Shown here: in pieces, positions 35,492 to 38,400 of the stretch
How the letters are laid out: every line of letters starts with the position of its first letter
Position numbering within the stretch: the stretch's first letter is position 1
NCBI GenBank assembly: GCA_037833965.1
Contig: AP031358.1
Coordinates: 3,480,001-3,544,000 of the forward strand
Direction: 5' to 3'
Source of the DNA: Marchantia polymorpha subsp. ruderalis
Lineage: Eukaryota > Streptophyta > Marchantiopsida > Marchantiales > Marchantiaceae
Length of the DNA: 64,000 bases
The notes under the pieces: model-generated
The model's database searches: none
What the model saw: only the letters and a program-made list of their open reading frames with translations
Told to the model about the DNA's origin: nothing
Translations under genes and position numbers: made by a program

Positions 35492-38400
35492 ATGACCATG
35501 AGTAACGAGCGGAAGGTCATAGAGCTTGAGCAAGGATGGACTTTTATGCAGAAAGGCATTACGAAGCTAAAGAACCTTCTCGAAGGAGTTCCAGAGCAGC
35601 AGTTCAACTCCGAAGAATACATCATGTTGTACACGTATCCTCCAGCTGAGAATGAGAGGGAGGGGGGCTTTTTTCAATTGCACAATTGAGAGGTTTTTTT
35701 TGCAGATTTTTGCCGTTGGACTATGGAAATGAAGGCAGTCTTTTCGAATGTGTATCTGAGAGTCATAAGACACTGAGGAATTTTGTTCGAGATCACCGTG
35801 ATCGCCTCAATTTGTGTATCGTGTGAACCTAGTCCTCTTGGAAAGCCCTAGGAGCCAGAGCTGCCGCAGTGTCGTTTGGCTTACAGCTTAAGAGTGAAAC
35901 AGCTTCCTCCGGCTGGACAACGTTAACCTAACCCGTATCACTAGACAAACACATAGCATGGGCACAAGCGCATTGACAGGAAGGTGTTCGAGTCTCCTGC
36001 ACTTGGCAGGCATCGTTCATCTAACGTGGGAAACTTACTCGAAAGCATCATCCTCCCGGCTAGCGTTCTTTGCAGATTTAGAGTTCCGATTCGGTGTCTT
36101 ATCAGCCGAATTGTCAAGATCAAGGAGTTGGCTTGGTTTTGTTATCGAATCAAAGCAAAGAGCCATCAAGGTGCTATTGAAAATTCAATTGTAGCTATTG
36201 TCAAAGATTTGGATAGCCCACGTGGTACCGACTAGTTTTTGCATTTCAGGGACTGGGTGATGCCTCCACATTAATTCATAGGAGGGTATTTGGAAAACTG
36301 GGCCTTTGACTATGAAACAACATCCGGCATTTGTATGAAAGTTCATGTGTAAAGCACATGAAGTTGTTCCTCGATCAAATAAACCTGATATTTGTAGTCA
36401 TGTGCCATTGTCACCCTCACGCTGTACAGGGTGAGGATGATGCCAAAGATCCTTATCTGTGTTACCTCCCACCGTTAAAAGAAGATATATACGTTTCCTA
36501 GTATTCTCGGTTGAAGCATAAGAAATACCACGTAATTATCTCAGTTGCCTTTTTAACGAAGCCAATCCCGAGTGATCTCCGTATGAGGATCTTCTCTTGA
36601 ATCTAGATTTGACTTCAAGAAATAAGTTCAGTCCGTCCATAAGTTGTGACTTCACATCTCTGTTGATCTTGTCTTTTGCTAAAACACTTTTATATCGTTT
36701 CCAACCTGAGCACCTTATGAAAATTATGTATCGTTCTTCATTGGTATCCTTAATCTGGAATACAGTACAATCTACAATATGTGTACGCAGAAACCTCCAC
36801 AAGACTACTCGCAACAGCTGTACGATAGGTACAAGGAGTCTTTTGAAGAGTACATCAACACTATGGTAAGACACATGATTCTTTGTCATTCCCCGAAAGC
36901 AATGTTGTAGATTTTGTGTTTGATGAAGCATTTGAGTTGCCTTCTTGACTGGACAATGAGTAGGTCACGGTCTGTCTCTCTCGTATAGAATAAGGAGAAA
37001 TCTGCAATGAGCTTCTGAGCAGCTGAGTTTTTGAACCAAGTATTTTAAACCAAGAATCTTGTCTGTAACGGTTAAGAAATTTAGTTTTTGAGAGAAGCAA
37101 CATGAAGGTTGTAAGGACTTGGGTGATGTGCTCCTAGAGTCTTGCGGTTATTTGCGCTTTATTTGCGTTTATTTGCGTTTATATGGATTTTTGCACCGAG
37201 TCTGTCAGGTGCTTGCAAGTGAGGATGGGTCAAAATGTTCAATCAGAGATGTGAACGTGTTTGGCACTAGGAAAGTGTGTTTTGGGATCTGCCGATAGTT
37301 GTATATATTTTTTTCCGAACTCTTCTTTCGCGGCTGCAAGTGATCACCCTTTCACAGAGAATATTTTCAGCTCTCTTTTGAGAGCTCCATCGAAGGCTTC
37401 ATCTTGGCCTGACTGAGAACCTAAAAACTTTATGTGTCCTAGAGTAAGGCAAATGTTATTCGGCCGTGCGGTTTTACTATTCGGCCGGGCAGTCCTAGAT
37501 ATACGCAGTGATCACATGTACGCGGTAGCCGAGGGCTCTAATGCGCGTAGCAGCGTTAGAATCGCAGAGACTTGCTCTACATGTCGGTCACCAAGTCTGA
37601 CATGGTCAGAGGGCTGTGTGGTGTTGCAGCATACGTGCAACTTCTATACAAATTCGGTGTTCTTGCCCCGCAGGTCAGTCGTCGGGCTTTTTTGAGAAAA
37701 CTCCGACTAGCGCCCACACTAAAATTTCGGATTCCAGGCAACAGTACATATTGACAATAGGAATACAAAGATAGGCAAGTGAATGGAGTGATGTTAGTGT
37801 AGATGAGATGGTTTAAGCCGAAGTTGCTTCGGCGCGGGGATACAAGTATTACAGAAATTGCTCTTTCGGCCGATTTCTGGTAGCTCTGAAAACTTTTTCC
37901 AGCCAGAGCACCTCGACCTTCAGTAGCAGTTTTAGATACCACGTTCCAAGAATCTTTGATGGCGGCAAAGAGTCTGTCAACTTGTTTGTTGTCCGTACCG
38001 TTAAGGCCTCTATGAATACGTGGCTCTCCATGGTATTTTCCAGTGTCCAGTTCTTTGATGAACTTGGTTTCACATAAGCAAGGCCCGTGTAAGTCGAGAG
38101 ACTTATGAAGGCGTGGTGGAGAAACCTCTTCCTAGCGGGGCTCTAATGTGCGTACATGTGATCATCTGCGTATATCTAGTACTACCCGGTCAATAGCAGC
38201 ACTGCACGGCCGTGCATGGCCGAAAAACATTTTCCTAGAGTAATGCATCCACTGGTGATCTTTTCTCTTGAGTTGTAGTTCGATTATTATTAATGTGGGT
38301 GCTATTGTCGCTCCTATTATCATTATCACATTGCATTGTGTAGGTACTGTCAGCTGGTTGCGTGCAAAATAGTTCAGATTTACTTTATTACAAACTCAGC

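Follow-up and report, generated by a model that had tools for sequence, protein, structure and literature searches.

A probable composite, non-autonomous transposon of a low-copy family in a cullin gene intron of Marchantia polymorpha subsp. ruderalis

The 788-bp element at positions 37448-38235 of the window (the whole 64,000-nucleotide stretch analyzed, contig C9, 3480001-3544000, from a genome of 241 Mb in 9 contigs) lies in an intron of a cullin gene and has the ends GG...CC. It is probably composite: a cut-and-paste transposon, non-autonomous and belonging to a low-copy family, made up of apparently fused family copies and a block related to sequence on contig C2. The initial annotation had proposed a non-autonomous transposon with terminal inverted repeats that had taken up outside DNA, and the inverted repeats, the target-site duplication and the inserted block agree with that proposal. 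The family is small and tractable, and living copies within a single genome show how it takes up sequence: the capture is visible in one copy as a fragment of a methylthioribose (MTR) kinase gene, and in another, the window's element, as an internal insertion beside a hairpin together with an apparent fusion of neighboring copies. The features of the element and its surroundings are as follows.

36866-38996, plus strand: cullin gene intron 2, 2131 bp long, with exon ends set by reading frame and GT/AG
37440-37447, no strand: left target-site duplication, 8 bp, TAGAGTAA, an exact match to 38236-38243
37448-37523, plus strand: left terminal inverted repeat, beginning GGCAAATGTTATTCGGCC, from alignment to the reverse complement of 38150-38235 and from family copies
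37524-37549, plus strand: inner family sequence adjoining the left repeat; 27 bp matched in family copy L012 (query 86-112, 93%)
37550-37773, no strand: 224 bp without a found source, trapped or captured DNA; no DNA relative in the genome search
37577-38131, minus strand: stop-free frame of 184 codons, judged spurious, spanning four modules
37774-37838, plus strand: family sequence opening with an apparent old internal terminus, GGCAAGTGAAT, from alignment to the ends of family copies L013 and L014
37839-38119, minus strand: inserted block of 281 bp, with relatives on C2 and C9; its neighbors are continuous in L013 and L014
38120-38149, plus strand: inner family sequence adjoining the right repeat, matching L011 and L013
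38150-38235, minus strand: right terminal inverted repeat, from alignment to the left arm and from family copies
38236-38243, no strand: right target-site duplication, 8 bp, TAGAGTAA, an exact match to 37440-37447

The terminal inverted repeats measure 76-86 bp. When the element's first 130 bases were aligned locally with its last 130, the inverted-repeat score was 45; none of 1000 single-base shuffles of the left arm exceeded 18.5. The imperfect inverted repeats of about 80 bp described initially are therefore real. The 10-bp direct repeat of the same description is likewise present, except that the duplication proper is the 8-bp TAGAGTAA and the remainder consists of bases matching the element's own end. 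The direct repeat, TCCTAGAGTAA, stands at 37437 and 38233, and the extra TCC of the left flank corresponds to the element's own last bases.

The register of the duplication was examined across the 10 two-ended copies of the family. A length of 8 leaves 62 of 80 flank positions equal, and lengths of 6, 7 and 9-12 give flank agreement of 23-37%. The copies' own flank pairs match at six or more of eight positions in 7 of 10 cases (8, 8, 8, 7, 7, 6 and 6, the rest being 5, 4 and 3), compared with 1 of 90 swapped pairs. Among the six other copies whose flanks reach this level, the base before the duplication agrees in one, L017; beyond the other side, L015 agrees for 2 further bases and L019 for 1. 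Eight bp is the sole duplication length that fits all copies with the same ends.

Other copies of the terminal repeats, on whose existence the initial annotation had made its reading depend, were found at no fewer than 11 places (C5, three on C3, two on C9, two on C7, C2, C6, and C2:28667295), a count that is a lower bound because the genome searches score the best candidates only. Both ends are present in 10 of the 12 places, with C7:25897634 and C6:5552509 appearing truncated, and the nine other two-ended copies range from 116 to 852 bp. A genome-wide search with the terminus pattern GGCAAATGTTATTCGGCC, allowing up to 3 mismatches, returned 90 hits, and the backward control gave 51. Sixteen of these are ends of known copies, and 8 of the 74 others were examined as short stretches. 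One of the eight, C2:28667295, is judged a further short family copy because a second, inverted end lies about 116 bp away (flanks 5/8); the remaining seven have little beyond the pattern. No transposase-bearing copy was found and, by eye, no new inverted pair within 10 kb appeared among the 90 hits. Scanning of six open frames of the element detected no Pfam domain, as anticipated by the earlier statement that it carries no transposase. The element is considered non-autonomous on these two grounds.

The family is small and low-copy and takes up host DNA. L013 and L014 lie within one larger dispersed repeat, with about 3 kb of homology at 88-96% identity, and are therefore counted as one event; neither has a visible duplication of its own (flanks 4/8 and 3/8). 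The longest family copy, L016 (2245-3096; C2:20943644-20944495), spans 852 bp, and its interior is a piece of a high-copy repeat with at least 43 matches (best 40 of 146 candidates scored); gene capture was accordingly rejected for this interior.

Judging from sequence comparison, the family does capture pieces of host genes, as the sister copy L019 illustrates (C9:4119585-4119962, 378 bp, duplication 7/8). L019, which shares its contig with the window's element and lies about 0.6 Mb away from it, holds an 88-codon piece matching S-methyl-5-thioribose kinase, with an E value of 2.8e-30 for TIGR01767 (below the full-length cut-off, as expected for a fragment), 1.6e-32 for PDB 2pyw (deposited as an uncharacterized protein) and 1.6e-15 for PDB 2olc, a methylthioribose kinase. 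Compared with the corresponding host gene (C2:2401213-2401437), the fragment has 91% protein identity across 75 residues and 95% DNA identity (211/221 bases). Five of the 10 differences are silent and five are not, so that on these few changes the fragment appears to bear no sign of protein selection. The host gene itself (L057, C2, around 2401213-2401437) is one long frame of 836 codons, 726 of them within the examined locus, with an IF-2B-type domain and a phosphotransferase domain. On our reading, the former is a methylthioribose-phosphate isomerase, and the gene apparently encodes an enzyme in which two steps of methionine salvage are fused.

Assignment to a superfamily falls between Mutator and hAT, and the element is filed under neither: its long repeats suggest Mutator and its 8-bp duplications suggest hAT. 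The label Mutator-like, given initially, is suggested by the long repeats, but an 8-bp duplication is both the length given for plant hATs and the lower limit given for MULEs, and no transposase ties the family to either. The PF12762 (IS1016-type) transposase, which we take to stand for the Merlin superfamily, had 0 matches at E 0.001 in the genome searched exon by exon; Merlin is therefore unlikely. The alternative that survives best places the same element in the hAT superfamily, with a hAT transposase mobilizing Ds-like or MITE-like copies, and its chance is appreciable though short of even. A protein frame elsewhere in the window, presumably hAT-like and without a Pfam match, speaks for it. 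Conversely, the search by termini found no hAT element with these ends, and the terminal GGCAA departs from the hAT end consensus. The duplications are exactly 8 bp, the length found in all hATs annotated in rice and maize (available text of PMC8903248) and in grapevine hATs (available text of PMC2528002), whereas the repeats of 76-86 bp exceed the 8-23 bp of the high-copy grapevine hAT families in the latter source. For Mutator-like elements (MULEs), the available texts give duplications of 8-11 bp, including Spectre with 8-bp duplications and 74-bp repeats (PMC6446971), plant duplications of 9-11 bp with repeats typically of 100-500 bp (PMC3310237), and grapevine duplications that are always 9 bp where seen (PMC2528002). 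The 8 bp observed here thus lies outside the 9-11 range and inside the 8-11 range, and the repeats of 76-86 bp compare with 100-500 bp in general and 74 bp in Spectre.

The evidence for a composite structure comes from the interior of the element. At 37774, GGCAAGTGAAT aligns to the outermost bases of L013 (GGCAAATGAAT) and L014 (GGCGAATGAAT), with a 3-bp gap behind it, and because of this alignment 37774-38235 looks like one whole short copy. The segment 37774-37838 is 86% identical to L013 over the whole stretch, a DNA-level match that reaches the end of L013, and 98% identical to L014 over bases 15-67 only. Support for the internal terminus comes from some 11 bp outside the strong match, on the far side of the 3-bp gap, and the inner short copy is defined only by L013 and L014, two related copies. 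From these alignments, the possible old terminus at 37774 suggests that two neighboring copies may have fused and moved together.

Under this composite reading, 37774-38235 would be an inner, complete-looking short family copy, to the left of which a second family end (37448-37549) and the 224 bp of DNA without a found source would have been joined. The two neighboring copies would have been mobilized as one unit from their outermost ends, presumably by a transposase acting in trans, and the unit would have entered cullin intron 2. The exact outer duplication implies that this insertion employed the outer ends, at 37448 and 38235, as a pair. Comparison of 37560-37773 with the 11 other family copies gave scores within the range of 100 shuffles for 10 of them; for L013 the score was 16.5 and the shuffled maximum 16.0.

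The 281-bp block is the second component of the composite. It is 89% identical to C2:21685266-21685544 and 84% identical to C9:24083679-24083806 over 129 bp, and the genome search gave no further relatives beyond these two places. In L013 the sequences at 37838 and 38120 run on without the block; L014 is also continuous for the first bases at this point, after which a portion of the right-hand sequence is missing. Family sequence is thus split by the block. Next to the block is a hairpin with a 7-bp stem at 37817-37833, whose folding has a z of -2.3 in the window's element (4 of 200 shuffles fold as well) and -3.0 in L014 (2 of 200 as good). The block may have been placed beside this hairpin, within the short copy, by template-switching repair, either before or after insertion into the intron. 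GGCG occurs near the left junction of the block in both the family sequence and the C2 relative, two bases out of register, and is not counted as evidence of microhomology.

No other part of the element matched within 6 kb around the C2 relative. On one side of it, a Raf1 Rubisco-assembly frame ends about 1.9 kb away; on the other, a VID27 frame lies at a distance of more than 1.3 kb. A smaller frame on the VID27 side, taken for the last VID27 exon, is without a Pfam match. At these distances the C2 stretch is outside recognized coding exons, and it is possibly a UTR or a non-coding transcript. In all three places (the element, C2 and C9) the block stops within about 2 bp of one boundary, near 37839, which argues against a straightforward capture of C2 sequence. 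This leaves two options: the block is an independent small repeat, or what stands at C9 is a composite copy that has decayed. The former option, in which a separate low-copy repeat or mobile element was inserted into the transposon and no host DNA was captured, is quite possible, though less likely than not. The shared boundary favors it, as does the variable other end (about 280 and 130 bp), which recalls 5'-truncated retroposed copies; set against these are the number of places found in the genome, only three, and the block ends, where no duplication or tail was noticed by eye in the alignments. The C9 place, moreover, may hint at a decayed composite: the flank of C9:24083679 aligns in order with 37774-37838, with a score of 12.5 that 35 of 500 shuffles reached. 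No terminal repeat was detected in 6.1 kb at the C9 relative (53 of 60 and 16 of 60 shuffles were as good on the two strands).

The stop-free frame of 184 codons noted initially on the minus strand is present at 37577-38131, and its length is unusual on composition alone, since dinucleotide shuffling of the element produced a frame at least as long in only 4 of 2000 cases. It nevertheless runs through four modules: the inner sequence on the right, the 281-bp block, the family segment and the 224-bp part. Across 279 aligned bases, the block and its C2 relative differ by 31 substitutions, distributed 14/6/11 over codon positions and thus without codon-position bias, and by a 1-base gap. The frame had 0 matches in Pfam and 0 in NCBIfam, and its best E against PDB was only 1.9. 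Searched against its own genome, it matched 7 places, namely itself, five short pieces and C1:1042595. The block explains the two pieces at C2 and that at C9:24083546, and family sequence explains C3:23688845 and C9:22718593. Four of these five related pieces have stops in frame; C9:22718593, with 35 codons aligned, has none. C1:1042595 (34%, E 0.03, no stops) was rejected as a relative and taken as chance, as it had no DNA match above noise. The frame was consequently rejected as a gene: because it spans modules, has unbiased substitutions, contains stops in four of five relatives and lacks Pfam, NCBIfam and structure matches, it is regarded as an accident of assembly, and the apparent protein frame is very probably non-coding. 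By itself, a long frame without stops between inverted repeats is no evidence of a captured gene.

The proposal that this frame represents a captured coding segment is consequently not supported, as the protein search of the same genome found no matching host gene, the frame extends over the borders between modules, and the one block that could be traced derives from a stretch in which no coding was recognized. A facing coding-like stretch on the plus strand had also been proposed; a 64-codon frame does lie there (37560-37754), but this frame, within the 224-bp part, found only itself in the genome at E up to 10 and had no Pfam or NCBIfam match. Overall, no host gene fragment was identified in the window copy, given a block from a C2 stretch without recognized coding and a segment, 37550-37773, without a relative. 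A Pack-MULE in the strict sense, that is, a Mutator-superfamily element whose 184-codon frame is a piece of a captured gene, is hence improbable. The gene fragment in the sister copy, the rarity of so long a frame among shuffles, repeats that are long for a plant hAT, and the precedent of Spectre are in its favor; the missing host paralogue, the stops in related pieces, the codon-position counts, the crossed module borders, the 9-bp or 9-11-bp duplications of plant MULEs in the other two sources, and the lack of a link to a MULE transposase weigh against it. That the inverted and direct repeats are a product of chance or recombination, with no transposon involved, draws on the small number of copies and the decay of several, and is already refuted by an inverted-repeat score far above 1000 shuffles, an 8-bp register common to independent loci, and a terminus pattern with 9 hits against 0 for the backward-read control, so that its chance is practically nil.

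The favored composite reading has parallels in described systems. Pack-TYPE transposons of rice, maize and Arabidopsis, in the available text of PMC8903248, are also non-autonomous, with terminal inverted repeats and a duplication, and their families also include copies with and without taken-up DNA. Some copies there comprise two family units with extra DNA of unknown origin between them, explained by joint mobilization of neighbors (PMC8903248); this 'AB'-like layout resembles the window's element, with its two family units and the spacer DNA between them. A host gene fragment within the family, here in L019, is a further likeness. The differences are that the window copy is without an identified gene fragment, that the present family occupies at least 12 places only, and that the available text of PMC8903248 treats rice, maize and Arabidopsis. 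Some MULEs carry a further terminal repeat inside the element (available text of PMC3310237); they likewise combine an extra inner end without a duplication and outer ends with one, but have repeats of 100-500 bp and duplications of 9-11 bp, compared with 76-86 bp, 8 bp and a short inner end here.

Single-copy Pack-TIRs of animals are attributed in the available text of PMC8277862 to gap filling with template switching. Single-copy filler in a decayed element and a breakpoint in the inner part are common to both, whereas the animal elements are reported to show a preference for parental copies in cis and breakpoint microhomology, and the relative of the block in the window's element lies on another contig. 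The grapevine Hatvine-6 hATs (available text of PMC2528002) resemble the present family in their 8-bp duplications and their uptake of genic and non-genic sequence; unlike here, their copies share transposase coding sequence, and the high-copy hAT repeats there are 8-23 bp. No report of gene-capturing transposons of liverworts was found among titles and the openings of abstracts, mostly outside subscription journals, and the words bryophyte, moss and algae are absent from the available main text of a 2026 review (PMC13317346).

The host gene was delimited by reading frame and GT/AG, which place the end of exon 2 at 36865 and the start of exon 3 at 38997. Without the element and one duplication (796 bp together), intron 2 measures 1335 bp. 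The three predicted exons, when joined, match cullin chains, with Cullin-1 the best (E 2.3e-7) and Cullin-4 and Cullin-3 also matched; taken by itself, the raw 139-codon frame that surrounds exon 3 had no match at 0.001. The initial placement within CUL1 intron 2 is therefore sound as regards a cullin intron, and the choice of CUL1 over another cullin is a tentative one that follows the best match.

Compared with 20 shuffles, the element RNA folds better than every one of them (z -8.8), and its arms are paired in the predicted fold. The element carries no findable gene, and its likeliest present role is that of an inert intron passenger whose repeats are able to pair in the pre-mRNA. A more far-reaching reading is held to be improbable: an undescribed low-copy family of a non-seed plant that captures genes and makes 8-bp duplications, in which the pre-mRNA hairpin of the cullin-intron copy would feed small RNAs or alter CUL1 splicing.

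Several other features of the window were recorded. Just upstream of the cullin start, 34000-35250 has 56-62% G+C, a strong G skew and, for the most part, an A skew. Two adjacent long frames at 7549-9381 (minus strand), which we take to look like hAT transposase, have no Pfam match at 0.01 and are accompanied on both sides by several CTAGTCGACTAG-like motif copies. Split Tc5/pogo-type transposase frames with HTH_Tnp_Tc5 and DDE_1 lie at 25491-26679 (plus strand), and copia-type retrotransposon pieces with RVT_2 and gag_pre-integrs at 53286-53894 (minus strand) and 55147-55590 (plus strand). A 528-codon frame at 61246-62832 (minus strand) contains two fasciclin stretches and a proline/alanine-rich tail. 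Tandem repeats of 53 bp, 85 bp and 32 bp are located at 11413-11519, 9859-10093 and 54122-54219, respectively.
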